Part shown: positions 4,280 to 64,000 of the stretch, in pieces
Position numbering within the stretch: position 1 is the first letter of the stretch
How the letters are laid out: every line of letters begins with the position of its first letter
Origin: a virus
Direction: 5' to 3' (one strand)
Length of the DNA: 64,000 bases
IMG/VR virus record: IMGVR_UViG_3300030380_005342
Location: 1-64,000 of that record
Translations under genes and position numbers: made by a program
Notes under the pieces: generated by a model
Databases searched by the model: none
The model's input: only the letters and a program-made list of their open reading frames with translations
What the model was told of the DNA's origin: nothing

Positions 4280-6187
4280 ATGGCATTTTTGAATGAGGAA
4301 ACACGCACACTCACTATCGATGGCACAGTCTATGACATTTCAGCCTTTTCGCAAGCGCAGATTCAGCAAGCGATTAATAGTGGGAACATACAGGGTTTCA
4401 TAGCAGAGACAGGATTATCTCCAATCAATCCTCCAGCGGCAAATATATCTCTTGCGGGACCGGCATCAAACGCATTCTTGCAAGAGTATTTCCAAAGATT
4501 TAATAATCCAAATCAGAGTGCAGAATTGCCAGTTCCTAATATTGGCACACCGCTACAACAAGGTGATGTTCCAGATTCAACTTCGGCTAGTAGTAATCGC
4601 TTTGCCGGTCAAGATACCATGGCACAGGCAGAGGCAAAAGCAGATGCCGAGGGTAAAGCACGCGCACGCGCACTCGCTAGAGAGGGTTCTGGAGTCCAGA
4701 CGGAGGTTGGAGAAAAATTAGGCAGTTTCTTAAATGAGGCTGGGAGGCTTGCACTTGAGGCTTCAACTGAGATGGGGTCTGCCAAGTTTAGTGATCGTGG
4801 TGAAATTTTAGGAGAGGAGAATATTGAGAGAGATATGAGATATCCTCTTGATGCTCTTGAAGGTGATTTGTCAAAGATTCCCTCTGTTGTTTCTTTTGAA
4901 TTTTTTAAGAAAGATTTCGAAAACTTACTTGAAAACAACATTATTAATAAAGATAACTTTTTACCTCTTGCCGTTTCAGGAGTTGCTGGTATTGCTAACG
5001 CTTTCTCAGTTGATGCAAGTGAGATGTCGCAAGTTAAATTTAGAAATCAAAGCCTTGTTGAAAATAATTATGCGTATGGTCCCTTGTCTGAAACAGAAAA
5101 AGTTTACACTGTCACACCGGGAGTGGCGGGAGTTGATCCGTATGAAGTCACACCAGATGTGTTTGAAAAATACAAAAGTAATTTTTATTCAACAGAGGGC
5201 TTGCCCGGTGGTAATGCTAATTTATTCGTTGATCCAGTCACGGGTGATGAAGTTGTTGTAAGTCAAAGACAAGTGGACTTAGACACACTTTCAAGATACA
5301 AAGACGTTAGAATTAGTAGAGCCTCTGAGTCAACAAAAGACAGAGTTTTCATGTACGTTCCAACGCAGTTGTCTTTCTCCGACAACATCTCATACGAGGA
5401 TGAAAGTCAAAACTTTTTAAGAAACGCATATGAGGCAGCCGCAGGAAATGTGACAGCAGTGGCACAGGGAATCAAGCAAGGATTTCTTAGTGTGGCATCT
5501 GACAAAATTGGCAGGGCAGTAGAAGACAGAACTGGTATCAACCTAGATTTGTATAATGGTTTGCGAGGACAGTTTGGTGTAGTTTCCAATCCAAAAAATG
5601 AATCAATGTTCTCAGGTATGAATCGTAAAACTTTCACTATGAACTTTACTTTTGCTCCGACCAGCAAGAGAGAGGCTGTGATGATGCAAAATATTATTCA
5701 ATCATTTAGATTTCACTCTGTTCCACAACTTGCACCTAGCACACTAAACTATCTTGCACCCCATGAAGTTGAAATCAAATTTTATCGAACGACTTTACTT
5801 GGTGATGTCACGGCTAAAGATACCTTTGGTAGAGATGGATCAAGTGAGTTCAAAGATGTGACAACTCTCGATAACAGGGATGAGGTTTTAGATAACTTTA
5901 ATCTTGGTCAGTTCAAAGGATTCGCTAAAGATATTCCCGATGAACTACTTGATCTGATCCCTGATGTTGCAAAAGACTTGGTTGGTTTAAAAGATGAGGT
6001 AACCTTAGTAGAGAACACAGAGTTGCCAAAACTCGGTAGGTGTTTCGTCACAGCGATTGACACAAACTACTCACCAAACCCCAAGTCTGCATTCTTTGTC
6101 GATGGCACTCCTGTTCAAGTTAATATGAATGTTTCATTCACACAAGCAATCATGATCAACAAGCAATTCGTCATGCAAGGATTCTAA
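4280..6187 (+). CDS. gp48: gp48 baseplate tail-tube cap protein, enlarged
   Basis: The protein has 635 residues against about 364 in T4. The C-terminal half matches T4 gp48 clearly: NPKNESMFSGMNRKTFTMNF (T4 has a closely similar NPRSRTMFDGM stretch), then IIQSFRFHSVPQL, a YLAPHEVEIKFY strand, and the end LPKLGRCFVTAIDTNY...VQVNMNVSFTQAI...VMQGF. The first 170 residues are Ala/Gln/Asn-rich with a charged Ala/Lys/Arg segment (AQAEAKADAEGKARARALAR, about 114-133) and have no T4 counterpart that I know. gp48 sits on the hub and with gp54 starts the tail tube. TAGGAGAAAA precedes the start. It is the first gene of the long plus-strand block and stops one base before gp53. Confidence 0.85.
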   Translation: MAFLNEETRTLTIDGTVYDISAFSQAQIQQAINSGNIQGFIAETGLSPINPPAANISLAGPASNAFLQEYFQRFNNPNQSAELPVPNIGTPLQQGDVPDSTSASSNRFAGQDTMAQAEAKADAEGKARARALAREGSGVQTEVGEKLGSFLNEAGRLALEASTEMGSAKFSDRGEILGEENIERDMRYPLDALEGDLSKIPSVVSFEFFKKDFENLLENNIINKDNFLPLAVSGVAGIANAFSVDASEMSQVKFRNQSLVENNYAYGPLSETEKVYTVTPGVAGVDPYEVTPDVFEKYKSNFYSTEGLPGGNANLFVDPVTGDEVVVSQRQVDLDTLSRYKDVRISRASESTKDRVFMYVPTQLSFSDNISYEDESQNFLRNAYEAAAGNVTAVAQGIKQGFLSVASDKIGRAVEDRTGINLDLYNGLRGQFGVVSNPKNESMFSGMNRKTFTMNFTFAPTSKREAVMMQNIIQSFRFHSVPQLAPSTLNYLAPHEVEIKFYRTTLLGDVTAKDTFGRDGSSEFKDVTTLDNRDEVLDNFNLGQFKGFAKDIPDELLDLIPDVAKDLVGLKDEVTLVENTELPKLGRCFVTAIDTNYSPNPKSAFFVDGTPVQVNMNVSFTQAIMINKQFVMQGF

Positions 6188-6188
6188 A

Positions 6189-7994
6189 ATGTATTTTAAA
6201 AATTTTCCTAATACTGAAACTTTAGTTAAAGATAATATTGTCAACGTAAAAAACATTTTGCGTCAAGCAGTCTTCACAAATGAGTCTATTGAACAAGATC
6301 GTGCGTACACGACATATAAAATGAAAGACTCAGATACCCTTGAGTCAATCGCTCTAGATTTGTATGGACGAGAAGATTTAAGTTGGTTGCTCATGATGTT
6401 TAATGAAATGATTGACCCGATGTATGATTCATCACTCAATACAATTTCAATGGACAACTTCATCAATAAAAAATATGATGGACAATCAATTTTTATTACG
6501 GAGAGAGGTTTTTCTTTTCCATTTAGTGTGACTAATGATGAAATCAAGTCCGGTGATCTTGTGATGCGTAGAGAGGGAGACACAGGCAATGTTTCATATG
6601 ATGAAAACAACTATGCTTTTGTCAAGCATTATGATAAAAATCTTTCAAAAATACAACTCTATGAACAAGTCGGAACTTTTAAGAAGAGTGATGACATTGC
6701 AATAATTCGAACCGACACCGAAATCTTAAATGCTAACATCGCTAGGGTTGATGAAAATGGTCGATCATCATTGCACCACTTTGGATTGGGAGTGACTACA
6801 CCTCACTTAGACCCTCTTGGTACAATTCCTGATACGAATGGCACTCAACTATCTCTTGGTGTTACCAGTTCGACAACTGATGGACTTAAAAATACAACTT
6901 TGTTCAGCGACACGCTTCTTCACAAATATCTCTATGAATCAACAGAGAAAGTGCTTGGTGCAAATGCTTTGTCTGCGTCAACAGGCGATAACAATTCTTG
7001 CTCTTTTGATTTCACAGACTTCTTTGGCGGTGTCTCATCACTAAAGGTCGGAAACACATCAGCGAGTTACACCTTCACTGGTTTAGGGGCAACACAAGGC
7101 AGCATAATTTTTAAATTTAAGCCACTAGAAAATTTTGAGGTTGGTGGGTCAGTCACATATGATGGTTTTCCAAGTGATGGAGTGATTACTAGAAGAGATG
7201 AGTACCACACATCAAACATGAGAAGAGTGCTTTCAACTAAAGATTGGGGGATGTATTCAAATGGCACAAAACTTATGATTGCATCAACTCCTGATAAAGA
7301 TACATTCCCCTCAATCGGTAATACGAAGATTCAAGGAAATGGTTATCTTTTTGGTCCCACCAGCACAACAGGATCACAAGGCACAGTGACGGATGACACA
7401 TACGTTTATGATTTGCAAGATGGAATTTTTTCGACAATCGTGATATCATATGATCAAAATAGTAACATATTGTTTTCTGTTGATGCTAGAAGTCCGGTAG
7501 GAGTGACCGCACTTTATCATGCATCTATTTCAGGAGAATTTATTCGTGATGGAGAAATGGTTTTTGGCAAAAATGCAAACGGAAAAAGTTTAATTGTTTC
7601 CGGTACAATGGAAAATGGTGCTGGCGAGACAATGAATGTTCCTCAATATTCAAGTGGTGTTACTGATGAAAGTTTGCTCTTTTTGGTTGACTCTTTGGGA
7701 TTCTCAAGTGGCACGCTAGATTTGTCTAGTTATGACGCAAGATCAAAACTTTTTGAAAAGTATAGAACAATTGAAATTGGAGACACCGAAGCAGAAGCAT
7801 CAAACACTCAATTGTTCGAATACGCTGAACCAACGTCTTTGATTACGGCTAATACCTCAGTTAATCAATATCGTGTTCTAAATTCTGATTATGAAATTAC
7901 TAAAAACATGACCAGTGGCACACTGAAACTGCCCAACCCTTCAATCGTTTCGCAGGTCGAACTTGAAATGAGGAAACTGTTGAGCGATGTCTGA
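6189..7994 (+). CDS. gp53: gp53 baseplate wedge protein with a large internal insertion
   Basis: The protein has 601 residues against 196 in T4. The N-terminus has the gp53/LysM-like pattern: YTTYKMKDSDTLESIALDLYGREDLSWLLMMFN (residues 40-72), then DPMYD. The last 60 residues (YAEPTSLITAN...SDYEITKNM...VELEMRKLL) look like the normal wedge C-terminus. Between them lie about 350 Gly/Ser/Thr-rich residues (roughly 170-520) with beta-strand phrases such as WGMYSNGTKLMIAS and TIVISYDQNSNILFSVD that look like a LamG/ConA-type sandwich. gp53 links the six wedges to the hub. The end overlaps the next start by 8 bases. Confidence 0.8.
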   Translation: MYFKNFPNTETLVKDNIVNVKNILRQAVFTNESIEQDRAYTTYKMKDSDTLESIALDLYGREDLSWLLMMFNEMIDPMYDSSLNTISMDNFINKKYDGQSIFITERGFSFPFSVTNDEIKSGDLVMRREGDTGNVSYDENNYAFVKHYDKNLSKIQLYEQVGTFKKSDDIAIIRTDTEILNANIARVDENGRSSLHHFGLGVTTPHLDPLGTIPDTNGTQLSLGVTSSTTDGLKNTTLFSDTLLHKYLYESTEKVLGANALSASTGDNNSCSFDFTDFFGGVSSLKVGNTSASYTFTGLGATQGSIIFKFKPLENFEVGGSVTYDGFPSDGVITRRDEYHTSNMRRVLSTKDWGMYSNGTKLMIASTPDKDTFPSIGNTKIQGNGYLFGPTSTTGSQGTVTDDTYVYDLQDGIFSTIVISYDQNSNILFSVDARSPVGVTALYHASISGEFIRDGEMVFGKNANGKSLIVSGTMENGAGETMNVPQYSSGVTDESLLFLVDSLGFSSGTLDLSSYDARSKLFEKYRTIEIGDTEAEASNTQLFEYAEPTSLITANTSVNQYRVLNSDYEITKNMTSGTLKLPNPSIVSQVELEMRKLLSDV

Positions 7995-9504
7995 TACTTC
8001 AAACTTGAATCGTAAATCTTATGAGAAGAAAGATGATGTTGTAATCAACTCAATTTATCTTTACACACCAGACACTCTTATTGAACTGGATAGTGGCGAC
8101 TTCGTAAAAGAATTAATCATTTATGAAAATATGATTGACTGTTTTCAAACTGGTCTTTTAGTTTTGACAGACAATAATAGACTCTCTGAGATAATTGATT
8201 TTACGGAAGCCTGCTATGTGGTTGTAAGTTATAGAACACCCTTGCCAAGACGAATGCAAAATGGTATGGGCGGCTTTGTTGATGAAAAACTTATCGAGAC
8301 ACCAGCCACCGTAGTGTTCAAGGTATACGAAACTGTATCAAAAACAAGAGGAACAAAACAAACGGCACAGTTTGAGGCATTACACCTTGTAAGTCCATCT
8401 TTATTTTTAAATGACATCAGTGTAAAGAGTCAGTCGGTTCGTGGAAATGCAATTGATATTATTAAAAATCTTGCGAGCAATTATTTTTATGACAGGAGTG
8501 GAGGAGACTCAACATCTGGAAAGGCTATGGTCACGACAAGTCTGCCAAACTTTAAGGAAATTTCTCTAGAGAGACTGCCCGCAGACAAAGCGTTGACAAT
8601 GATTGATGATAATTATGACTTCCTAAAGGTCACGGGCAAAACAACTGAAGAGTTAAAAATTGCATTTCCGTTTTCTAGGGCTTTGTATAAAATTAAAGAG
8701 ATCGCACATGATCTTGAAACAAGCAATGGAAAACAAGGCTATGTGTTTTGGGAAACACACACAGGTTTCAAATTAGCCCCCAGACAATATTTGTATGAGC
8801 AAAAACCATTGATGCTTTTAACAAAAAGTCAAGTCGATGCACAATACAATTCGCAATACAACCCCGGACCAATTATGAACATTTACGACATGGATGATTT
8901 CGAAATTGGTGGCTCACATAAAAGATCGATGCAAATCCGAGATGGTGCTTTTCAGTCAACAATGTACGTTTATGATATTACAAATAAGACTTACTATAAA
9001 AGTAACTTTTCATACAATAGGGGATATGTGGGAAATATCAGCGGTAGATACCCTGTCATCAATCCTAACAAAATTTCTCCAAGATTCACTGAGGTGAGTG
9101 ATGGGGTGCATAAAGTTTTTACAAAAGACATAGCCTCGGGTAGATTTAATAAGTCAAGGTTTAGTGGAGAAATTGATGAACGGAACTTCGGACACGCGGA
9201 TGTTCAACAACTGGTTCATAGTGAGAAGGCATTATCCATGGATACTTACATGGAAGTAAACACTTCTGGTATGCATTTTATTGAAGCCGGTAATACTGTG
9301 CAAATTCTTATACCACCTGCGACTGCCTCTCAAGATAATTCTTCCGACAAGCAGTTATCAACCACATACTTGGTTGACTCGGTTACACATGTCATTGACT
9401 TTATTACAAAAAGTCATAGAATGAAACTTGGTTTAAGTAAAAATTTCAAAACAACTGAATCTTCAACAGTTCAGTTACAACCAAGTGAGGGAGTGGGTGC
9501 TTAA
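7987..9504 (+). CDS. gp27: gp27-like baseplate hub protein
   Basis: The protein has 505 residues. The start has a strand-rich pattern (VVINSIYLYTPDTLIELDSGDFVKELIIYENM, residues 18-49, then CFQTGLLVLTDNNRL) typical of hub proteins with tube-like beta domains. Later segments (GYVFWETHTGFKLAPR; FIEAGNTVQILIPPA; LSTTYLVDSVTHVIDF...HRMKLGLSKNF) fit the gp27/gpD-type hub, in which a final barrel contacts the spike. It lies between gp53 and gp5, where the spike's trimeric partner is expected, and its TAA ends at the A of the gp5 start (9504). T4 gp27 has 391 residues. The assignment is by pattern and position. Confidence 0.68.
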   Translation: MSDTSNLNRKSYEKKDDVVINSIYLYTPDTLIELDSGDFVKELIIYENMIDCFQTGLLVLTDNNRLSEIIDFTEACYVVVSYRTPLPRRMQNGMGGFVDEKLIETPATVVFKVYETVSKTRGTKQTAQFEALHLVSPSLFLNDISVKSQSVRGNAIDIIKNLASNYFYDRSGGDSTSGKAMVTTSLPNFKEISLERLPADKALTMIDDNYDFLKVTGKTTEELKIAFPFSRALYKIKEIAHDLETSNGKQGYVFWETHTGFKLAPRQYLYEQKPLMLLTKSQVDAQYNSQYNPGPIMNIYDMDDFEIGGSHKRSMQIRDGAFQSTMYVYDITNKTYYKSNFSYNRGYVGNISGRYPVINPNKISPRFTEVSDGVHKVFTKDIASGRFNKSRFSGEIDERNFGHADVQQLVHSEKALSMDTYMEVNTSGMHFIEAGNTVQILIPPATASQDNSSDKQLSTTYLVDSVTHVIDFITKSHRMKLGLSKNFKTTESSTVQLQPSEGVGA

Positions 9505-53610: not shown

Positions 53611-54144
53611 ATGAACATCTTTGCAGTAGACGAACATCCCATTCGTGCCGCTCATCAAATGGTGGACAAGCACGTTGTCAAAATGATTCTAGAAGCAGGT
53701 CAAATGCTGTCCACCTCTCATCGTGTTCTTGACGGTGATGAGTATTACGACCGAACAAAAAACAATAGACGTATCAAGCGTTGGCGACTGAGCGATGAGC
53801 GTGAAGATAAACTTTGGAAAGCATCCTTTGTCGGTCATCCCTGCACGCAGTGGACGATGGAAAGTCGTATGAACTATCGGTGGCACGCGACTCACGCTCT
53901 GGCTCTCTGCCGTGAGTATACACACCGATACGAAAAGGTTCACAACTCACAAGGTTTGATTGAATATCTTTTTAATCGTGAACCTCAAAATATCAAAGAG
54001 GGTAAACTTACAAAGTTTGCCGTTGCAATGCCTGATCAGTATAAGGTAGAATGCTCTGTAGAATCTTACAGAAACTATTACAGAGGAGAAAAGGCTTACT
54101 TTGCAAAATGGAAAAAACGTGAAGTACCCGAATGGTGGCAATGA
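53611..54144 (+). CDS. Conserved phage protein of unknown function, DenV-like in part
   Basis: The 177 residues contain a widely conserved phage pattern: HPIRAAHQMVDKHVVKMILE (7-26), MLSTSHRVLDG, WKASFVGHPCTQWTMESRMNYRWH (69-92), LTKFAVAMPDQYK (134-146), and the end YRNYYRGEKAYFAKWKKREVPEWW. Some relatives are labelled pyrimidine-dimer glycosylase. The final Tyr/Trp/Lys pattern recalls the DenV C-terminus, but the N-terminal catalytic Thr of DenV is not obvious. I treat it as unknown. It overlaps the following GalE-like gene (ATGA). Confidence 0.55.
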   Translation: MNIFAVDEHPIRAAHQMVDKHVVKMILEAGQMLSTSHRVLDGDEYYDRTKNNRRIKRWRLSDEREDKLWKASFVGHPCTQWTMESRMNYRWHATHALALCREYTHRYEKVHNSQGLIEYLFNREPQNIKEGKLTKFAVAMPDQYKVECSVESYRNYYRGEKAYFAKWKKREVPEWWQ

Positions 54145-55115
54145 GTAAAAAATTAAATGTATTGATTACAGGTGGAGCGGGCTACATTGGTAGTCACGTT
54201 TCACTCGCGTTCTTAGATGCCGGTCATAGAGTTACAGTGTTTGATCGAAATGAAAAAAACTGTAAGAGCCTCAAAAAAAGTCTAGGCAGACGAAAGAACA
54301 TCAGAATCTATAACTGTGATTTAGGTGACAGCGTTTACCTTGACGGTGTTCTTTCCGAAGGTATCGACACTGTGATTCATTGTGCTGGTCCCAATCAAGT
54401 AAGAGAATCCATAGACTCACCCCTTTCTGTGTATCACGATGTGGTTGGAAAGACACTGACATTGTTGGATGCGATGAGAAAGCATGGCGTGATGTCATTT
54501 GTTTATACCTCAAGTGCAGCAGTATATGGTCGTGTTAAAAATGGTGCGGCACTTGAAACAGCCCACTGTAAACCAATCACACCATACGGAGAATCAAAGT
54601 TGATGATCGAAACGATCATGAACAAATACAGAAGATCTAATCCTAGTTTTTCTTTTGCATCACTTAGAGTTTTCAATGCCGCAGGGAATAATCTATCTGC
54701 TAAGGTAACTCCAAAACAAAATTCAATCATTAGCAAATTAATTAACTCCGCTATGAGTAAAAAAGTTTGTAACATTTATGGGCATGAGCATCAAACATCA
54801 GACGGTTATGCTTGTAGAGATTTTGTTCACATTGATGATGTTGCAAAAGCACATGTTCTTGCCGCTGAAAAAAATGCCTGTGGTATTTTTAATGTAGGTA
54901 ATGGTGTCGAAACAAGTCTGTGGGATTTGATTGCAGATGTTGTTTCAGTTACACAGAAAGAAATTGACATCTCTAAGAATAAACCACATAATGGTGACGT
55001 TGCCTCAATTGTATCTGATTGTAGTAAAATCAAAGAGATAATGAGTTGGGAACCAACATTTACACTTAGAGAGATGATTGAAACATCTCTCAAATCTTAT
55101 AAAAAAGGAGAATAA
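54141..55115 (+). CDS. UDP-glucose 4-epimerase-like (GalE-type) short-chain dehydrogenase
   Basis: The 324 residues run from the ATG overlapping the upstream stop. They show the NAD-binding GGAGYIGS (11-18), VIHCAGPNQVRES (78-90), S124/S125 in YTSSAAVYG, the catalytic Y149-x-x-x-K153 in TPYGESKLMIE, and the late GalE phrases YACRDFVHIDDVAKAHV and GIFNVGNG. GalE inverts the 4-hydroxyl of UDP-hexoses (Glc/Gal or GlcNAc/GalNAc). A slightly divergent substrate pocket cannot be judged by eye. It is the first sugar gene in the row and stands before the DNA clamp genes. Confidence 0.83.
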   Translation: MSKKLNVLITGGAGYIGSHVSLAFLDAGHRVTVFDRNEKNCKSLKKSLGRRKNIRIYNCDLGDSVYLDGVLSEGIDTVIHCAGPNQVRESIDSPLSVYHDVVGKTLTLLDAMRKHGVMSFVYTSSAAVYGRVKNGAALETAHCKPITPYGESKLMIETIMNKYRRSNPSFSFASLRVFNAAGNNLSAKVTPKQNSIISKLINSAMSKKVCNIYGHEHQTSDGYACRDFVHIDDVAKAHVLAAEKNACGIFNVGNGVETSLWDLIADVVSVTQKEIDISKNKPHNGDVASIVSDCSKIKEIMSWEPTFTLREMIETSLKSYKKGE

Positions 55116-56625: not shown

Positions 56626-57569
56626 TGCTAACAACTGAACAACACTTATGGGTCGAGAAGTTTCGACCACAATCAATCAAGGATTGTATCCTCCCCGGTG
56701 GCTTGAAAGAAACACTTCAAGCCATTGTGGATTCTGGTGAGATGCACAATCTTTTGTTTTCTGGTGGACCGGGGTGTGGCAAGACCACGGCTGCGATTGC
56801 CATGTGCAAAGAGATGGGTGCAGAGTATATCAAAATTAACTGCTCCGAAGATGGCAACATTGACACGCTGCGAACACGAATTCGTGACTTTGCTACATCT
56901 CAGTCTTTGACTGGTGATAAGAAAGTCGTGATCCTTGATGAGTTTGACTATGCAAATGCAAATAGTTTTCAACCTGCGTTGCGTGGTTTCATCGAAGAGT
57001 TCTCGATCAACTGTCGCTTCGTCTTGACCTGTAACTTCAAGAATCGAATCATCGAGCCGCTGCATTCCCGATGCACATGTGTTGACTTCCGCTTCACGAA
57101 GGAGGAGCAGATGAAGATGGGGTCGCAGTTCTTGAAGCGACTGGAAGGCATCCTGCAAGGCGAGAGCGTCCACTATGACGGTCGTGTGATCGCCAAGTTG
57201 ATCATGCGTCATGCTCCTGACTGGAGGCGTATCCTGAACGAGTGTCAACGTTACTCTGCCTCCGGTGAGATCGATGTCGGCATCTTGACGGAGATCGGTG
57301 ATGTTGGTATTCACTCGCTCATGGATATCTTGAAGAACAAAGACTTCTCCAAGTTGCGTGGTTGGGTGGTTGACAACGGCAGCAACGAGCAAGCACAAAT
57401 CTATCGCAAGATTTATGATTCGTTGGGTGAGAATCTGAAACCACAATCCGTGCCAGCGGTGATTCTGATTCTGGCAAATTATCAATACAAGGCTGCGTTT
57501 GCCGCTGATTCGGAGATCAACATGATGGCGTGCCTTACTGAAATCATGATGGAGGCAGAGTTCAAGTGA
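56625..57569 (+). CDS. gp44: gp44 clamp loader large subunit
   Basis: The 314 residues (T4: 319) have the AAA+ motifs: VEKFRPQSIKDCILP (10-24), Walker A GGPGCGKT (47-54), Walker B VVILDEFDYA (101-110, D105/E106), sensor 1 FVLTCNFKNRI, and the arginine-finger motif SRC (148-150). Four gp44 and one gp62 load gp45. The ATG at 56625 overlaps the gp45 stop. The 3' half is noticeably GC-rich compared with the sugar genes beside it. The gene is followed directly by a sugar dehydrogenase instead of gp62. Confidence 0.96.
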   Translation: MLTTEQHLWVEKFRPQSIKDCILPGGLKETLQAIVDSGEMHNLLFSGGPGCGKTTAAIAMCKEMGAEYIKINCSEDGNIDTLRTRIRDFATSQSLTGDKKVVILDEFDYANANSFQPALRGFIEEFSINCRFVLTCNFKNRIIEPLHSRCTCVDFRFTKEEQMKMGSQFLKRLEGILQGESVHYDGRVIAKLIMRHAPDWRRILNECQRYSASGEIDVGILTEIGDVGIHSLMDILKNKDFSKLRGWVVDNGSNEQAQIYRKIYDSLGENLKPQSVPAVILILANYQYKAAFAADSEINMMACLTEIMMEAEFK

Positions 57570-58423
57570 GTGACATTGGAATTATTGGAAATGGTTTTGT
57601 TGGTGGAGCAGTGGCATATGGTTTCCGTGATCAAAAACCTCTAGTCTACGATATTAATCCAGACGCATCCACTCACAGTTTTGATGATGTTGCAAACTGC
57701 AAGTACCTTTTCATCTGCTTGCCCACACCGATGGTAAGTGAAACTGGAGGCGAGGCAAACACCAGCATCGTTGAGGAATGCTTGGAGAAACTATATCAAA
57801 ACAGAGAGCAAGTAATCATGCTCAAGTCTACCGTTCCGGTTGGCACGACTAAACTGTTGTCTCAGAAGCATCGCCTAAGAAACTTGGTTCATTGTCCTGA
57901 GTTCTTGACCGCTGCAAACGCAAAGTATGACTTTGTAAATGCTGATAGGACTGTGATCGGATCTCCATATCTCAGAGATGGTATTGAAGAAAAATATTCC
58001 GAAATGGCAAAGGAACTATTCTTAAAAGTTTTTCCCGACATCCCCGTTTACACCATGTCATCATGTGAGTCAGAGATGGTAAAGTATACGGCTAACTGTT
58101 TCCTTGCAACCAAGGTTGGTTTCTTCAATATGATTTTTATGCTTGGCGAAAAGATGGGCTTGGACTACAATCGTGTCCTTGAAGGAGTCTTGGCTGATCC
58201 TAGAATTGGCAGATCACACACGGCAGTACCCGGTCCCGATGGAGACTATGGATTCGGTGGCACATGTTTTCCCAAAGATGTAAATGCGATGATTACAACT
58301 TTGCAAAATAATCACATCTCGTCTTACATTTTAGAGTCTGTTTGGAGAGACAATATGAAATACAGAAAAAACTGGGACTGGGCAAATAACACATCAGCAG
58401 TGAGAGCAAATGAAACTCGGTGA
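57566..58423 (+). CDS. UDP-glucose/GDP-mannose dehydrogenase family protein, short form
   Basis: The 285 residues carry the NAD-binding IGNGFVGGAVA (7-17), the LPTPM loop (52-56), STVPVGTT (88-95), HCPEFL (109-114), the helix EMVKYTANCF (170-179, with K173 and N177), and the catalytic C234 in GFGGTCFPKD. Full family members have 390-450 residues; here the C-terminal nucleotide-sugar-binding domain is absent. It would oxidise C6 of a UDP-sugar to the uronic acid if a dimer or partner supplies the missing surface. It starts at GTG overlapping the gp44 TGA and overlaps gp62 by 14 bases, so it is precisely fitted into the clamp-loader operon. Confidence 0.85.
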   Translation: MSDIGIIGNGFVGGAVAYGFRDQKPLVYDINPDASTHSFDDVANCKYLFICLPTPMVSETGGEANTSIVEECLEKLYQNREQVIMLKSTVPVGTTKLLSQKHRLRNLVHCPEFLTAANAKYDFVNADRTVIGSPYLRDGIEEKYSEMAKELFLKVFPDIPVYTMSSCESEMVKYTANCFLATKVGFFNMIFMLGEKMGLDYNRVLEGVLADPRIGRSHTAVPGPDGDYGFGGTCFPKDVNAMITTLQNNHISSYILESVWRDNMKYRKNWDWANNTSAVRANETR

Positions 58424-58787
58424 TTACCTAAACGCAATCAACTACTCCAAGGATGATCTCTTTGCGGACGAGGAAGCCGCGAAAGGGTATGTTCCATTTA
58501 TTGTGAACCGGAGCCTATCTTACTTTCCTGACACGATCCTACAAGCAAATGACATGAATATTCATGCAGATTTAGGTAAGCAAGAACAGTTTGATTATCT
58601 ACGCCACTCGATCAGAAAGCGTAGACGGTTCAGCAAATGGCTTAAAAAGACAGAGGACAAACGAATCGAGTCCGTAAAAATTTTCTACAATCTGGGTACA
58701 AAAAAAGCCCTTGAGTCCATGAGAGTTTTGTCGGACAGACAGATTGACGAAATCCACGATTATGTTCTAAAAATGCAAGGCTCCTAA
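58410..58787 (+). CDS. gp62: gp62 clamp loader small subunit
   Basis: The 125 residues (T4: 187, shorter in marine relatives) match gp62: LGDYLNAINYSKDDLF (3-18), YVPFIVNRSLSYFPDTILQANDMN (27-50), QFDYLRHSIRKRRRFSKWLKK, and KALESMRVLSDRQI. It joins four gp44 subunits in the loader. The start lies within the end of the dehydrogenase gene. In T4, genes 44 and 62 are adjacent and overlap, so the insertion of a sugar gene between them is notable. Confidence 0.88.
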   Translation: MKLGDYLNAINYSKDDLFADEEAAKGYVPFIVNRSLSYFPDTILQANDMNIHADLGKQEQFDYLRHSIRKRRRFSKWLKKTEDKRIESVKIFYNLGTKKALESMRVLSDRQIDEIHDYVLKMQGS

Positions 58788-58809
58788 ATACAATTGTGGG
58801 TTGACCACA
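58784..58809 (+). promoter_or_regulatory. CTAAATA motif and small hairpin in the regA leader
   Basis: CTAAATA (58784-58790) overlaps the gp62 stop. A 5-bp stem TGTGG/CCACA with a GTTGA loop lies at 58795-58809, five bases before the regA RBS (TATGGAG). In T4, RegA represses translation by binding leaders near the start, including its own, so this hairpin could be a target. The stem is short and may be chance. Confidence 0.3.
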
Positions 58810-58822
58810 TTGTTATGGAGTT

Positions 58823-59248
58823 ATGATGGAAAAATTAGAATCTATTGTAGAGTCTCTGGTAGAAGTCACGCTCAAAGATCCAGAAGACTTTTTGAAAGTA
58901 AGAGAAACGTTGACCCGTATTGGTGTCTCTTCTCGCGTGGGTAACAAGTTATATCAATCTTGTCATATTCTTCACAAGCGTGGAAAGTATTACATTACGC
59001 ACTTCAAAGAACTTTTTGCACTTGATGGGCTTCCATCTAAAATGACAGAGGAAGATTTCGGCAGAAGAAATACCATTGTTGGTCTATTGACTGAATGGGG
59101 ACTCATTGATATTGTGGATGGAAATAAATGCCAAGAACCTTTAACATCCATGAGAAAAATTAAAATTATTTCTCACAAAAACAGACACGAGTGGGAGTTG
59201 ATACCTAAGTATCACATTGGGAAAAAACCATCTAAAGACGAAGAATAA
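58823..59248 (+). CDS. regA: RegA translational repressor
   Basis: The 141 residues (T4: 122) align by eye with RegA: EVTLKDPEDFLKVRETLTRIGVSSR (14-38), LYQSCHILHKRGKYYITHFKELFALDG (43-69), EEDFGRRNTIVGLLTEWGLIDIV (76-98), and ISHKNRHEWELIPKYHIG. RegA binds mRNA start regions of early genes (including gp44/gp45/gp62 in T4) and shuts off their translation. There are twelve extra residues at the start (MMEKLESIVESL). Two tandem ATGs compete as start. It is the end of the 45-44-62-regA order conserved from T4. Confidence 0.95.
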   Translation: MMEKLESIVESLVEVTLKDPEDFLKVRETLTRIGVSSRVGNKLYQSCHILHKRGKYYITHFKELFALDGLPSKMTEEDFGRRNTIVGLLTEWGLIDIVDGNKCQEPLTSMRKIKIISHKNRHEWELIPKYHIGKKPSKDEE

Positions 59249-59265
59249 AATAAAAGGATTATATT

Positions 59266-60171
59266 ATGAAATACCTAGTGACTGGCGGGGCTGGATTTAT
59301 TGGATCTAATATTGTTTCTACTTTGCTTGAGGGTGGACATCAGGTCATAGTGATTGATAACGAATCATCTGATGCACATCACACCTTTTACTGGCAAGAC
59401 CTAGCAGAAAATCATAAGTTAGATATTTGTGATTACGAAAAGATTCTACCTCTTTTTGATGGTGTAGATACAGTGTTTCATTGTGCAGCGGAGGCAAGGA
59501 TTCAACCTGCCATAATTAACCCACTACTCGCAGTCAAAACAAATTCGTATGGCACATGCTCAGTGTTACAAGCAGCCAGAGAAATGGGCGTTCGTAGAGT
59601 TGTTTACTCATCAACCTCTTCGGCTTATGGTTTAGAAAACGTTCCACCAAATGTTGAAACCCAACGAGAGGACTGCCTAAATCCATACTCGGTATCAAAA
59701 GTTTCTGGCGAAAAACTTTGCAAAATGTATTACGATTTGTTTGGTTTAGAAACCATCGTGTTTAGATACTTCAATGTTTATGGTGAGCGTCAGCCTCTCA
59801 AGGGTCAGTATGCTCCTGTCGTTGGATTATTTTTAGAGCAGTGGAAGAAAGGCGAACCCCTTACCATTGTCCCTGACGGAGAACAACGAAGAGACTACAC
59901 TCATGTTTCAGATGTCGTGTTTGCAAACATACTTGCATCAACGGTTCGTAAAAATGCTTGTGGTGAAGTTTACAATGTGGGAACCGGAACAAATTTTTCT
60001 GTAAATGAACTTGCAAAAATGATTTCTGATAATACAATCATGATTGAACCACGACTAGGAGAGGCAAGAGTGACTTTGGCAAACAATAATAAGTTGCGTA
60101 GAGTGATGCGATGGGAGCCAACAGTCAAACTCGAAGAGTGGGTAAAAAATGAAAAGGAGAGAATCAAATGA
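59266..60171 (+). CDS. NAD-dependent nucleotide-sugar epimerase/dehydratase (WbpP/GalE-like)
   Basis: The 301 residues have GGAGFIGS (7-14), VFHCAAEARIQPAI (70-83), the STSSAYG serine region (116-122), catalytic Y141-x-x-x-K145 in NPYSVSKVSGE, RYFNVYGERQ, and GEQRRDYTHVSDVV. The phrases around RYFNVYGERQPLKGQYAPVV resemble UDP-GlcNAc/UDP-GlcA 4-epimerases more than GalE. With the dehydrogenase at 57566 a UDP-glucuronate to UDP-galacturonate step is possible. It starts the uninterrupted sugar cluster, with RBS AAAAGGA before it, and overlaps the next gene (ATGA). Confidence 0.83.
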   Translation: MKYLVTGGAGFIGSNIVSTLLEGGHQVIVIDNESSDAHHTFYWQDLAENHKLDICDYEKILPLFDGVDTVFHCAAEARIQPAIINPLLAVKTNSYGTCSVLQAAREMGVRRVVYSSTSSAYGLENVPPNVETQREDCLNPYSVSKVSGEKLCKMYYDLFGLETIVFRYFNVYGERQPLKGQYAPVVGLFLEQWKKGEPLTIVPDGEQRRDYTHVSDVVFANILASTVRKNACGEVYNVGTGTNFSVNELAKMISDNTIMIEPRLGEARVTLANNNKLRRVMRWEPTVKLEEWVKNEKERIK

Positions 60172-60863
60172 TCGGTGGCGAAAACGTTGATGAAACAAGA
60201 GTGAATCTACTAGAAACCAGAACTCGATGGATAAACGTATCAAAAGATACTGAAAAGGCATCACAAATGGTTGAACTCCTTGGTGATAAAAATTTTACAA
60301 ACCATGAGAGATTTAATGCACTAACAGAAGATGCAGAGTTTGGGTGGACAAAGGAAAAAAGCCCAGAGTGGTTTGTGACTCACATGTGTGGACTTTCACA
60401 TCGTAAACTTTTGATGGAAACCATTATCAAGGATGACAAACCCGTTCTTATTTTAGAGGATGATGTTGAGATTGAACATCCAACATGGATGGATGAAATC
60501 CCAGTTCCCCGAGATGCAGACGCAGTATATCTTGGCACTTCTCACAGCGACATGAGATACAGGGCAGAGGATCACGGCAATGGTTGGAATAAAATTACGG
60601 GAGTGTTTGGAACACACGCCATCTTACACTTGAATAAAAAGTATGCCTCAGAGATGTGTATCATGATTGAAAGATGCGTTAAAAATAATCATCCATTTGA
60701 TGTTTCATTGGCAAAGGATCTACAAGGGAGATTTAATGTATACGCACCATACTCTCCATTCTTTTATCAAGCAGACTCAAAAAATACCACAAATAAGTAT
60801 GAGGCTATTACAAGACCGCCACTTACTCAACAAAAAAAGTTTACGCTTGGAACATTTAAATAA
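60168..60863 (+). CDS. Glycosyltransferase, GT25-like
   Basis: The 231 residues show the GT25 (LPS/collagen-galactosyltransferase) layout: an N-terminal strand RTRWINVSKDTEKASQM (18-34), a WFVTHMCGLSHRKLLM segment (68-83; family pattern 'g...SH...'), and the metal-binding VLILEDDVEIEHP (93-105). Later, FGTHAILHLNKKYA fits the acceptor side. In other organisms, GT25 enzymes add Gal or related sugars to LPS or to collagen hydroxylysine. Its overlap with the epimerase shows coupling, and three more transferases follow. The donor and acceptor are not shown. Confidence 0.72.
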   Translation: MIGGENVDETRVNLLETRTRWINVSKDTEKASQMVELLGDKNFTNHERFNALTEDAEFGWTKEKSPEWFVTHMCGLSHRKLLMETIIKDDKPVLILEDDVEIEHPTWMDEIPVPRDADAVYLGTSHSDMRYRAEDHGNGWNKITGVFGTHAILHLNKKYASEMCIMIERCVKNNHPFDVSLAKDLQGRFNVYAPYSPFFYQADSKNTTNKYEAITRPPLTQQKKFTLGTFK

Positions 60864-60865
60864 TC

Positions 60866-61627
60866 ATGCCAGTATCTTTTAATAATCCAACTTGGAGACT
60901 TGGCAACCAAATGTTCCAGTATGCTGCGACACTTGGTGTTGTTGAAAAAATCAATACACATGGTAATTTTGCGATTGATAACACATATCTCTCCGAGTGT
61001 TTTGAACTAGGCTCCTTGAAAAATGCGAGAGTGTTTGCAAACAATCTTTATCAAGAACCTCGTTTTGATTTCTGTGATGATATTTTTAGAATTGATCCCA
61101 ACTTACATACAGATCTACAAGGTTACTTTCAGACTGAAAAATACTTTGACCACTGTAGCGGAAGAGTAAAGGCTGATTTTACTTTTAAAGAAAATATTAG
61201 ACATAAAGTTTCTGAGGATTTACCAGTCGGTGTTCTTTGTTCTCTCCATGTGAGAAGGACAGACTATCTACAACTCGCACATGTCCACACAAATTTGCAA
61301 GTGGATTGGTATGAGAAAGCCTTCGAAAATCAAAAGGAATACTTTGGTGATGAACTTATCCCCGTGATATTTTCTGATGACATTGAGTGGTGTAAAGAAA
61401 ATTTATCACATCTTTCTGACGATACTTTCTTTTCAAATGGTGACACATACTATGATCTTTGCATGATGTCTTTTTGCAACGCTCACATAATTGCAAATAG
61501 TAGTTTTAGTTGGTGGGGTGCTTACCTTGGTGGGGGCAGAACAGTTGCACCAAAAGAATGGTTTGGAGAAAGTAATCCTCACGGGGATTGGAAAGATATT
61601 TACTGCGATGGATGGGTGATCATTTGA
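60866..61627 (+). CDS. Alpha-1,2-fucosyltransferase-like glycosyltransferase (GT11)
   Basis: The 253 residues have the classic GT11 start RLGNQMFQYAATLG (11-24), a middle LQGYFQTEKYF (84-94), the donor-binding HVRRTDYLQ (128-136), and the late motif ANSSFSWWGAYLGG (210-223). GT11 enzymes transfer fucose from GDP-fucose to the 2-OH of galactose, though phage members may use other donors. No GDP-fucose synthesis gene is seen in this window, so the host would have to supply the donor. It follows the GT25-like gene by two bases. Its stop overlaps the TTG start of the next gene. Confidence 0.87.
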   Translation: MPVSFNNPTWRLGNQMFQYAATLGVVEKINTHGNFAIDNTYLSECFELGSLKNARVFANNLYQEPRFDFCDDIFRIDPNLHTDLQGYFQTEKYFDHCSGRVKADFTFKENIRHKVSEDLPVGVLCSLHVRRTDYLQLAHVHTNLQVDWYEKAFENQKEYFGDELIPVIFSDDIEWCKENLSHLSDDTFFSNGDTYYDLCMMSFCNAHIIANSSFSWWGAYLGGGRTVAPKEWFGESNPHGDWKDIYCDGWVII

Positions 61628-62442
61628 AAATCGTACAAGCATTTGGATCACCATTTACTCACGATAAAAGTTCGTGCATGGGAAGTGTTCCTACTAATCA
61701 CATTTGGCACTACGGAGCATGCGAGGACTCAGACATCGAAGTTTACTTGGATTATGATGTAGTGGGAGGATTTAAATCTCCATGTGAAAATAAGTTTCTT
61801 TGGCTGAGTGAATCTAAATCTATTGTTCCTCATCAATATGCTTTTGTAAGAATGTGGTATGAAAAGTTTTGCGACTGTTATAAAGCAATATTTACGGCAG
61901 ATCGAGAGTTAGTTAATCTTCATGATAAGTTTATAGAAGCACCCGGAGGATCAAACTATACATGGGTGACTCCAGATAAACGGGGTGTTCATAAAAAGTC
62001 CAAACTTGTTTCTATGATTAGTTCTGGAAAAGTTATGTGTGAAGATCATATTAATCGAAATGCAATCGCAGACAAAATGATTGAGCAAGGTGTTGACATG
62101 TTTGGCAGACTATACACACCTGTTGAAACCAAAGATATGGCACTAAATGATTATATGTTTTCTGTGACCATAGAAAATGTAATCTTATCAAATTATCAAA
62201 CAGAAAAAGTCATCGATTGTTTCGCAACGGGAACTGTTCCAATTTACTTGGGGAATCCATCCATCGGTGAAACCTTTAATCCAGATGGAATTATTTTTTA
62301 CGATGACAACTTTGATCTAAATATGTTGTCGGAAGATTTGTATCAAAAAATGCTTCCGGCTGTGAAAGAAAATTATGAGATATTCTGTAACATGAAAATC
62401 TCTGATGATGTGATTTTTGACAAGATCACAAAACTACTCTAA
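61624..62442 (+). CDS. Alpha-1,3-fucosyltransferase-like glycosyltransferase (GT10)
   Basis: The 272 residues begin at TTG 61624 (MKIVQAFGSPF), which overlaps the GT11 stop in the same TTGA way as gp55/gp47; ATG 61612 would add four residues. The C-terminal half carries the GT10 pattern: KKSKLVSMISSGK (124-136), MFSVTIENVILSNYQTEKVIDCF (178-200) and GTVPIYLGNPSI (203-214). GT10 enzymes transfer fucose to GlcNAc or similar. The N-terminal half has a diverged acceptor domain. Together with the GT11 gene it suggests a fucosylated or related branched glycan. Confidence 0.82.
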   Translation: MKIVQAFGSPFTHDKSSCMGSVPTNHIWHYGACEDSDIEVYLDYDVVGGFKSPCENKFLWLSESKSIVPHQYAFVRMWYEKFCDCYKAIFTADRELVNLHDKFIEAPGGSNYTWVTPDKRGVHKKSKLVSMISSGKVMCEDHINRNAIADKMIEQGVDMFGRLYTPVETKDMALNDYMFSVTIENVILSNYQTEKVIDCFATGTVPIYLGNPSIGETFNPDGIIFYDDNFDLNMLSEDLYQKMLPAVKENYEIFCNMKISDDVIFDKITKLL

Positions 62443-62445
62443 ATA
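62439..62445 (+). promoter_or_regulatory. Candidate late promoter CTAAATA before the GT2 gene
   Basis: CTCTAAATAGAAG overlaps the stop of the GT10 gene, 18 bases before the next ATG. AGGAG (62452-62456) follows as RBS. The context is like that at 50998. Confidence 0.45.
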
Positions 62446-62462
62446 GAAGACAGGAGATTATT

Positions 62463-63734
62463 ATGAGCAAAAGACCAAGCGTTACATTATGCATGATCGT
62501 TAAAAATGAAGAACACATCATCCGTGAGTGTCTTGATTCTATGGTGGGAGTTATCGATAGGTACGACATCTCTGATACAGGTTCAACGGATAAAACAAGA
62601 GATGTAATTCGTGAGTGGGGTGAAAAGAATAATATTCCGGGTGAAGTGTACGATATTCCATGGAAAGGATTTGGTAAGTCTAGAACAGATGCGTTTAAAA
62701 ATGCTGAGGGAAAAGCCGATTACGCTTGGGTCATTGACGCAGATGATAAACTTGAAGGTGACTTTAGATATCCCGAAGAATTTGGTGAACACGATAGTTA
62801 TGCTTTAAACATTCATCGTGGTGATTTCAACTGGTGGAGACAACAAATTTTTAAACTCTCAGCAGGTTGGGAGTATGTTGGTGTTCTCCACGAATATGCA
62901 AACGCTAAAGGTCTTCGTGACGCAGGGGGAACACCTACAGCGGGTCGTATTGAACCACATCCGCATTACCATATCGAAGCAAGAACGATGGGCGACAGAA
63001 CCGTTCAGTTCGGTGATGACCAATCTGCAAAATACACCAAGGATGCTGAAACACTTATTGATTGTTTAACGAATCCAGAAAATGAAAACTATGAGCCGGA
63101 TAATCTCAGATATGAGTTTTACGTTGCACAGTCTTACTTTGATGCTCAGAATATTGAAAAGGCATTAGAGTGGTACGAGAAAAGAGCGGTCAAAGGCGGA
63201 TGGGACGAAGAAGTATGGTATTGTGTCTACAGAATTGCAATCTGCAAATGTCTCCTGAAAACAAGTTGGGAAGAGGCACAAGATCATTTCTTACAAGCGT
63301 GGAACATTCGACCTCATCGTGCAGAGCCTTTGTATCAACTTGCAAGAATTCACAGACAAAATGGCAATCCAAGATTAGGTTACTTGTTTGCCAAAACTGC
63401 CATGAATATTCCATTCCCGCAGGGTGATATTTTGTTCTTAGCAAATGACGTTTATGATTGGCAAATTGCTGATGAAGTTGCCTCCTCCGCTTACTATGTT
63501 GGTGACATGGTTGCTGGTCTTGAAGCATCGAATAAACTTTTGGAGGACAAAAAATTTCCAGACAGTGAAAAGGATAGAATTGTAAATAACTTTTCTCAAT
63601 ACGCAAAGTGGCTCGAAGAGCAGAATGCAGCACAACAAAAAATGCAGCAAGAAATTTTAGAAAAACAAGTTGCGGAAAAAATGAAAAGAACAAAAGCACC
63701 AGCACCAAGAAGGAAAAAAAAGGCTAAGAAATAA
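62463..63734 (+). CDS. Family 2 glycosyltransferase with TPR-like C-terminal half
   Basis: The 423 residues start with a GT-A fold: [21 protein letters not shown] (7-27), [15 protein letters not shown] (35-49), and the DxD-type [11 protein letters not shown] (89-99), then [23 protein letters not shown]. Residues about 200-370 are helical repeats ([51 protein letters not shown]) that look like TPR units. The end is a coiled coil and a Lys/Arg/Pro-rich tail ([12 protein letters not shown]). A GT2 plus TPR architecture is found in O-linked glycoprotein transferases. It ends on the first base of the collagen-like gene ATG, so the two are coupled. Confidence 0.85.
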
Positions 63735-64000
63735 TGGCTGAGTTTTCGTTTCCATCTAGTCCAACTTTTGGAACAACGCTTTCAATAGGCTCAAAGGAAT
63801 TCACATGGAATGGATTTGGATTCCAACGAGTTTCGTCTATCGGTCCAACGGGACCAACAGGTGCAACAGGAGCCACTGGTGCAACGGGACCAACGGGTGC
63901 AACAGGGAGTGATGGAGCAACAGGAGCAACAGGAGCCACGGGAACCACTGGGGCTACTGGAACCACCGGAGCCACAGGGACTACAGGAACCACTGGCACT
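63734..64000 (+). CDS. Collagen-like Gly-X-Thr fibre protein, N-terminal part (cut by window end)
   Basis: The first 89 codons are present. A 36-residue N-terminal module ([28 protein letters not shown]) resembles the attachment ends of marine phage fibres. From G37 on, the protein is a run of Gly-X-Y triplets, 17 complete ones in view; Y is Thr in 16 and Asp in one (GSD), and X is Pro, Ala, Thr or Ser. Such triplets form collagen-type trimers, and Thr at Y can carry sugar, as in the Bacillus BclA filaments. The ATG overlaps the stop of the GT2 gene. Total length and the C-terminal end are unknown. Confidence 0.88.
63842..64000 (+). repeat. Nine-base GGN-NCN-ACN repeat coding for Gly-X-Thr
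   Basis: The run consists of 9-base units such as GGTGCAACA and GGAACCACT, with codons varied at third positions, so the DNA copies are not identical though the protein triplets nearly are. Varied codons argue for selection on the protein and against recent slippage. The repeat continues past the window end. Confidence 0.88.

Follow-up and report, generated by a model that had tools for sequence, protein, structure and literature searches.

BclA of Bacillus has a Gly-X-Thr collagen-like stalk, a globular C-terminal domain and O-linked sugar on Thr. In Clostridioides difficile, the enzyme SgtA (358 aa, a GT-A domain and then TPR repeats) adds beta-O-GlcNAc to collagen-repeat Thr in vitro; its gene lies immediately upstream of bclA3, and the first sugar was reported to be capped further (PMC7157674). 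Thr is the commonest Y residue in bacterial collagens and hydration alone can be its role (PMC8968730), so a Gly-X-Thr repeat alone proves nothing. Thr-Y collagen phages are also often found without a nearby enzyme, and we therefore rejected Thr-Y composition as proof of glycosylation. In the window (the whole 64,000-nucleotide stretch of viral DNA analysed here), we found a gene for a GT2-TPR protein that runs onto the start of a collagen-like fibre gene. Based on its SgtA/SunS-like architecture, we propose that this protein is a candidate initiating O-glycosyltransferase of the fibre.

A sugar-gene island and a collagen-like fibre gene

The source virus is T4-like, infects bacteria and is probably marine; its DNA polymerase shares about 51% identity with those of Synechococcus phages. 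The full record has 74025 bp, and the sugar island extends beyond position 64000 (Table 1). In the first-pass annotation, a row of sugar genes ran onto the start of the collagen-like gene. The dehydrogenase, epimerase, GT11, GT10 and GT2-TPR genes of that row were confirmed; however, the GT25 assignment is sub-threshold, and the row is not uninterrupted because gp62 and RegA, which are T4 replication and regulation genes outside the glycan system, lie between the dehydrogenase and the epimerase. At the end of the row, the stop codon of the GT2 gene does overlap the ATG of the fibre gene, in a TAATG at 63734.

Table 1. Features of the locus, with positions past 64000 taken from the full record
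Feature	Coordinates	Strand	Evidence and remarks
GalE-like UDP-glucose 4-epimerase	54132..55115	+	Upstream outlier of the sugar genes; NCBIfam TIGR01179 268 bits vs cut-off 262; PF01370 E 4e-56
UDP-glucose/GDP-mannose dehydrogenase-like	57566..58423	+	Short (285 aa); PF00984 and PF03721
Clamp-loader small subunit gp62	58410..58787	+	T4 core gene; PF16790 E 9e-14
RegA translational regulator	58823..59248	+	T4 core gene; PF01818 E 9e-43
SDR sugar epimerase, UDP-glucose 4-epimerase-like	59266..60171	+	PF01370 E 7e-55; PDB 4zrm (UDP-glucose 4-epimerase) E 4e-50
GT25-like glycosyltransferase	60168..60863	+	Weak assignment; PF01755 21.0 bits vs cut-off 24
GT11 family transferase	60866..61627	+	PF01531 E 5e-24; PHROG 2644 glycosyltransferase E 4e-67
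GT10 family transferase	61588..62442	+	PF00852 E 4e-9
GT2-TPR protein	62463..63734	+	Pfam GT2 E 4e-12; TPR matches
Collagen-like fibre gene, 5' part in window	63734..64000	+	PF01391 E 2.5e-9; ends at 64567 in full record
Gly-X-Thr repeat start	63842..64000	+	40 triplets in total, to 64201 of the record
Fcl-like gene	66850-67821		Past window
ColD-like gene	67818-68996		Past window; followed by gp43 DNA polymerase

The dehydrogenase-like protein has UDP-glucose 6-dehydrogenase as its top PDB matches, and its TIGR03026 match spans positions 67-298 of 413 and falls under the cut-off. When we read past position 64000 for the rest of the fibre, as had been suggested, the fibre gene was completed and the Fcl-like and ColD-like genes were also found. 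On the 3' side of the fibre gene are a gene for a conserved, beta-helix-like protein of 387 aa (no PDB match was found for it), two small genes, a dUTPase gene, the Fcl-like and ColD-like genes and gp43; the GT2-TPR/fibre pair thus sits between RegA and gp43. The promoter motif TATAAATA was absent within the 64-kb window. CTAAATA was dropped as a promoter (9 copies vs 6.7 expected); a single copy precedes the GT2-TPR gene and is not conserved in relatives.

The complete fibre protein has 277 aa and a Pfam collagen match, with 40 uninterrupted Gly-X-Y triplets at residues 37-156. Thr is found at 37 of the 40 Y positions and 18 of the 40 X positions of this repeat, and there are 0 Lys residues. 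The C-terminal tip, which we modelled, is a predicted jelly-roll domain, and the C-terminus has no relative among 50,697 cultured-phage records.

The PF01755 match of the GT25-like protein covers 32 residues. The protein has relatives in several related phages and matches PHROG 24091 (E 2e-19), a PHROG of unknown function; a PDB search returned no match for it and none for the GT11 protein. Because the GT25 match is below the Pfam cut-off and the repeat is without lysine, we rejected the earlier idea that GT25 acts as a collagen enzyme here. The GT11 protein scores 85 bits with PF01531 and the GT10 protein 37 bits with PF00852 (cut-off 23.9 for each), and GT10 aligns with the alpha-1,3-fucosyltransferase 2nzw through a conserved C-terminal motif (TEKVID...GTVPIYLGNPS). 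The true start of GT10 is probably a codon later than the TTG. Both proteins are candidate fucosyl- or colitosyltransferases.

The glycan had been called possibly fucosylated; since a ColD-like gene lies past the window, we now think colitose likelier than fucose. By sequence, the Fcl-like and ColD-like genes suggest a supply of GDP-L-colitose (3,6-dideoxy-L-galactose), not just of fucose. The ColD-like protein matches PDB 2gms (GDP-4-keto-6-deoxymannose 3-dehydratase) over its whole length (E 1e-60), and the catalytic His that replaces the aminotransferase Lys is conserved (GHHMTTIEGG aligned with SHHIATMEGG; the 3b8x chain has SNH there). Unlike ColD of 2gms, this candidate is phage-encoded and its gene overlaps the Fcl-like gene. 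No Gmd was found above the cut-off in the record's 74 kb; a Gmd-like match (408 bits vs cut-off 415) lies beside ColD in the contig of one relative. Among relatives, the swapped sugar genes are for NeuB-type sugars, sulfation, methylation and formylation.

Colitose is typical of O-antigen loci, as are GT10 and GT11 enzymes, and this counts for a reading in which the enzymes alter the host LPS O-chain or capsule during infection and so keep other phages from superinfecting the cell; the fibre would then adjoin the transferases because phages swap recognition and receptor modification as one unit. This is the published view of glycosyltransferases near pelagimyophage fibres (PMC7029224). Lipid-linked units of the host could also be substrates for soluble transferases. 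However, in a hydrophobicity scan 0 of 417 island genes encoded a polytopic membrane protein, and thus none encoded a membrane protein resembling a flippase, a polymerase or a lipid-phosphate transferase; this absence rests on the hydrophobicity scan because the Pfam scan of the other island genes lists 25 of 61 matching families. Host LPS modification also leaves unexplained a SunS-like peptide-transferase fold and the presence of the same enzyme by bacterial collagen genes, and we consider it unlikely.

Fold and conservation of the GT2-TPR protein

The GT2-TPR protein has 423 aa, with an N-terminal GT-A domain (PF00535, residues 9-100) followed by TPR repeats, and its predicted structure is a confident GT-A plus TPR model (pLDDT 91). 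With Foldseek, we found that the top PDB structures for this model are SunS/ThuS, which are dedicated peptide glycosyltransferases (E 2e-14), with TM 0.53-0.56 over about 410 columns and both domains; the inter-domain angle differs (rmsd 13-14 A). The best sequence match is GmaR (E 1e-12), and the protein scores 24.3 bits vs a cut-off of 350 for the SunS family peptide S-glycosyltransferase TIGR04195. D92-A93-D94-D95 is invariant across 29 relatives. Among relatives, no other island gene is as constant as that for GT2-TPR, while the other sugar genes are swapped. Relatives of the GT2-TPR protein occur in only 10 of 50,697 cultured-phage records, all at less than 60% identity.

T4 relatives glycosylate DNA bases, and the position near RegA and the DNA polymerase would suit a replication role, so the transferases might add sugars to the bases of the phage DNA, as happens in T4, to defend it against restriction. 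In contrast, the fold and the bacterial neighbours indicate a protein as target, and a thymidylate-synthase/dCMP-hydroxymethylase family (PF00303) gene was present in 0 of 10 records, several of them fragmentary. We regard DNA modification as very improbable.

Collagen genes beside the enzyme in phages and bacteria

In 20 of 35 surveyed phage loci with the enzyme, a Thr-Y collagen gene is found directly after the GT2-TPR gene or one small gene on; of 10 directly adjoining pairs, 9 have overlapping stop and start codons. In 11 of the 35 there is no adjacent collagen, and 5 of those 11 have one about 9 kb on; in 4 of the 35 the collagen is charged and has no Thr in Y. A Thr-Y collagen is near the enzyme in 20 of 29 cases; in our phage control, which used other GT2 genes, the count is 6 of 57. 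In a core-gene-anchored phage set, 17 have both the enzyme and a Thr-Y collagen, 4 the enzyme alone, 0 the collagen alone and 18 neither, a contrast that follows clades. Among Thr-Y collagen phages at large, there is an enzyme match within 10 kb in 11 of 79, vs 4 of 49 with charged collagen. For the enzyme family, the co-occurrence check proposed in the first-pass annotation thus gave a positive outcome, with exceptions both ways: some loci have the enzyme without Thr-Y collagen and some the collagen without the enzyme, and we dropped strict co-occurrence.

In bacteria, 41 of 80 homologue loci, chosen regardless of collagen, have a Thr-Y collagen within about 6 kb (36 within 2 kb), as compared to 0 of 20 arbitrary control windows in the same genomes, which were placed by hand and are a small, Streptomyces-rich set. 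In one bacterial order, a collagen-family gene is present in 7/7 genomes with the enzyme and in 24/78 without it. The bacterial homologues beside collagen genes span several phyla. The enzymes of phages and bacteria form deeply split groups; the association is therefore not one recent synteny block. If the phage enzyme does glycosylate its fibre, a substrate is predicted for the GT2-TPR family in Streptomyces, Mycolicibacterium, Nevskiales, Burkholderiales, Acidobacteriota and others.

These surveys bear on a further reading, in which GT2-TPR glycosylates another virion protein (the small conserved h65 family protein, the beta-helix-like protein, a capsid protein or the fibre tip), which would make the collagen a bystander. 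In some relatives, the enzyme is kept although no Thr-Y collagen adjoins it, and h65 is often a neighbour of the enzyme, even where collagen is missing. However, the bacterial homologues adjoin collagen genes outside the context of a phage fibre, and SgtA acts on collagen Thr (PMC7157674). We think a bystander collagen quite improbable.

Proposed fibre glycosylation and its known parallels

Taken together, these data suggest that phage-encoded O-glycosylation of the phage's own collagen-like fibre is the best reading, to which we give a probability of roughly three in four. Glycosylation of Thr in the Y position of the fibre had been put forward from the first look at the locus, and it gains support from the SunS/ThuS-like fold, the SgtA/BclA3 parallel and the enzyme-collagen association in both phages and bacteria. 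The fibre would be synthesised with its run of Gly-X-Thr triplets, and GT2-TPR, translated just ahead of it, would grip the chain by its TPR arm and catalyse addition of the first sugar (going by SgtA, probably GlcNAc or a different UDP-sugar) to Y-position Thr hydroxyls. GT25-like, GT11 and GT10 would then extend and cap the glycan in the cytosol. Their donors would be UDP-sugars via the GalE, dehydrogenase and epimerase genes, plus a GDP-deoxyhexose, most likely GDP-L-colitose via Fcl-like and ColD-like, with Gmd from the host or an unsequenced part of the phage. The decorated trimer would be built into the tail and carried by virions. With the initiator constant and the later enzymes swapped, each phage would have a fibre coat of its own.

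If this reading holds, these phages put sugar on their tail fibres by means of a type of enzyme that has been tested on bacterial spore collagen, the many 'LPS-like' transferases near marine T4-like fibre genes could be reread as virion, not host, modification, and there would be a simple two-gene system for making glycosylated bacterial collagen. We are more tentative about a wider proposal, which we hold at a little short of even: that this lineage of T4-like phages has a variable 'glyco-serotype' locus for its own fibre (a constant SgtA-like initiator tied to a Gly-X-Thr collagen stalk, with swapped rare-sugar genes) and that the enzyme-collagen pairing marks a general, largely unrecognised bacterial collagen glycosylation system across phyla. 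The coat of each phage would possibly serve host mimicry or shielding; at first, shielding or a tuning of adsorption had been put forward as its purpose.

By its published domain description (PMC7157674), SgtA shares with GT2-TPR the order of GT-A and TPR and a gene directly upstream of a Thr-Y collagen gene; it differs in serving a bacterial spore coat, whereas here a longer enzyme stands by a phage fibre, with a cassette of nucleotide-sugar and transferase genes. SunS/ThuS (PDB 7msn, 7msp, 7msk) are the best full-length structural matches (TM about 0.55) and also have their peptide substrate encoded nearby, in glycocin clusters (PMC8620827), but they are 14-16% identical and their acceptor is Cys/Ser of a small bacteriocin. 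By description, BclA of Bacillus resembles the phage fibre in its stalk and globular C-terminal domain; it belongs to the exosporium, not to a phage, and its glycan has rhamnose and anthrose. Mimivirus L230, a collagen lysyl hydroxylase/glucosyltransferase, is likewise a virus enzyme that modifies virus collagen, but it targets hydroxylysine (PMC9614988), whereas lysine is absent from the phage repeat and we saw no trace of a hydroxylase. Mycobacteriophages also place phage-encoded sugar on virion proteins (Freeman 2023, cited in PMC12619734); the C-termini of capsid and tail-tube proteins are reported to be glycosylated there, not a collagen-like fibre. The host recognition clusters of pelagimyophages, which are marine T4-like phages, also hold transferases and fibre genes in hypervariable regions, and the transferases there are read as modifiers of the host O-chain (PMC7029224); in contrast, the pair between RegA and gp43 points to a protein acceptor.

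Gene layout and the collagen-like fibre

The whole record is a virus contig of 74,025 bases with a T4-like genome; genes for the clamp loader large subunit (gp44) and the clamp (gp45) lie upstream of the region, gp62 and RegA lie inside it, and the gp43 polymerase (nearest to Synechococcus phages, ~51% identity) and UvsX lie downstream. The sugar genes are present where the first-pass annotation placed them; however, they do not form the unbroken row that it described, as gp62 and RegA split the dehydrogenase from the epimerase. Past the window end, a dUTPase gene is followed by Fcl-like and ColD-like genes. Reading the sequence past position 64000 for the rest of the fibre gave the full collagen-like protein, 277 aa long. 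An N-terminal piece of 36 residues is followed by an unbroken run of 40 Gly-X-Y triplets, which has Thr at 37 of its Y positions and lacks Lys, and then by a C-terminal domain. This domain is predicted to fold into an eight-stranded beta sandwich, with a mean pLDDT of 85; in structure searches it matches jelly-roll proteins of viruses, at weak E-values. PDB and PHROG searches with the beta-helix-looking protein encoded next gave no match. The small conserved protein h65 is likely a fibre partner.

Features around and beyond the window end (L001, the stretch reaching past it)
Feature	Position in L001	Window scale	Length	Remarks
GT2-TPR gene		62463-63734 (+)	423 aa	stop overlaps start of collagen-like gene
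Beta-helix-looking protein			387 aa	start overlaps end of collagen-like gene
h65, small conserved protein	5749-6213	65749-66213		weak match to PHROG 3304, L-shaped tail fibre assembly
Fcl-like and ColD-like genes	6850-8996	66850-68996		overlapping

The GT2-TPR enzyme and the probable cap sugar

The GT2-TPR model is confident (mean pLDDT 91), and D92-A93-D94-D95 is invariant in 29 relatives. Over the whole length of the model, the top Foldseek matches are SunS and ThuS, which are dedicated peptide glycosyltransferases; they superpose with an overall rmsd of 13–14 Å, indicating a different angle between the domains. The enzyme is not a SunS family member, since it scores 24 bits against 350 for the NCBIfam SunS model. 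By sequence, its best PDB match is GmaR, a flagellin O-GlcNAc transferase. Similar pelagimyophage genes have been viewed as modifying the host O-chain (PMC7029224); this explanation is weakened here, as there is no polytopic membrane protein among 417 island genes and the modelled GT2-TPR fold appears to be of the peptide-transferase type. DNA is an unlikely substrate of the transferases, a search of 10 records, several of them fragments, having found no gene of the thymidylate-synthase/dCMP-hydroxymethylase family.

The Fcl-like protein has human GDP-L-fucose synthase as its best match (E 9e-76), the ColD-like protein (E 1e-60) keeps the catalytic His, and the two genes adjoin each other in most relatives having both. 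ColD takes the 3-hydroxyl off GDP-4-keto-6-deoxymannose and, with a ColC/Fcl-type partner, yields GDP-L-colitose. GDP-fucose is the donor for the GT10 and GT11 families, and GDP-colitose for some members. Because both genes are present and the donor range allows it, the cap sugar is more likely to be colitose, judging from sequence, with fucose, as first suggested, the alternative. No match to Gmd, the first pathway step, exceeds the cut-off (415 bits) in the 74 kb of the record; a match of 408 bits adjoins ColD in one relative, and two freshwater phage contigs have matches of 427 and 495 bits. A narrow literature search found no phage-encoded colitose synthesis.

Recurrence of enzyme and collagen in phages and bacteria

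Our phage survey yielded 35 enzyme-carrying loci, of which 34 come from relatives of this phage. A collagen with Thr in Y follows the enzyme in 20, directly in 10 (9 with stop/start codon overlap) and after one small gene, h65, in 10. In 4 loci a charged collagen lacking Thr in Y comes next, then a fibre. In the remaining 11 no collagen adjoins the enzyme, and 5 of these have an h65 and Thr-Y collagen pair ~9 kb on. These five (L119, L127, L128, L132 and L138) carry the pair beyond UvsX with the enzyme still beside dUTPase, so that enzyme and collagen are split in place, yet on the same contig. The four charged-collagen loci (L094, L098, L102 and L121) have Gln, Asp, Lys or Arg in Y and a separate fibre gene next, which shares this phage's fibre tip in three; they are a natural test of the GT2-TPR acceptor, for which another virion protein is possible. 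Other sugar genes are swapped in relatives (GT6, NeuB, cytidylyltransferase, FkbM methyltransferase, sulfotransferase and formyltransferase families). A distant freshwater phage of 168 kb carries the enzyme elsewhere in its genome, flanked by an h65 homologue and a large fibre gene.

Thr-Y collagens are near 20 of 29 enzyme loci, compared to 6 of 57 control viral loci with other GT2 genes. When an unrelated core gene served as the anchor, 17 loci had both, 4 enzyme only, 0 collagen only and 18 neither, a contrast that tracks clades, its events not being independent. The gene arrangement is real and beyond chance. The proposed co-occurrence is supported for the enzyme family but strict in neither direction: the enzyme tends to imply collagen, but collagen does not imply the enzyme, which is matched within 10 kb in 11 of 79 Thr-Y collagen phage cases versus 4 of 49 charged-collagen cases. 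In bacterial collagens, Thr fills the Y position more often than any other residue and has a possible role in hydration (PMC8968730). Upstream h65 genes occur at 30 of 79 unrelated Thr-Y phage loci and 6 of 49 charged-collagen loci.

When bacterial genomes were scanned with the enzyme alignment, blind to collagen, 41 of the 80 best loci had a collagen-like gene whose Y positions are at least 30% Thr (36 within 2 kb), averaging 65% Thr in Y and 4% in X. Twenty control windows of 20 kb in these genomes, placed by hand and blind to content, contained no such collagen. In the Solimonas order, a collagen-family gene exceeds the cut-off in 7/7 genomes with the enzyme versus 24/78 without (Fisher p 0.0005). 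The pairing occurs in at least 4 phyla. GT2-TPR homologues lie by Gly-X-Thr collagens in Streptomyces, Mycolicibacterium, Nevskiales, Burkholderiales, Acidobacteriota and Myxococcota, a candidate general bacterial collagen glycosylation pair. A quick-version tree splits phage from bacterial enzymes by a long, well-supported branch; two long-branched freshwater-phage sequences group with the bacterial ones.

Comparison with known systems

Taken together, our analysis suggests that the phage most likely encodes O-glycosylation of its own collagen-like fibre, SgtA-like in action. FlmG, another TPR glycosyltransferase, binds its substrate protein by the TPR part (PMC7591256). C. difficile SgtA, a GT-A domain protein with C-terminal TPRs whose gene sits just upstream of bclA3, adds beta-O-GlcNAc in vitro onto Thr of the collagen repeats (PMC7157674). 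Likened through its published description rather than by sequence, SgtA/bclA3 is the closest tested system to the GT2-TPR and fibre pair.
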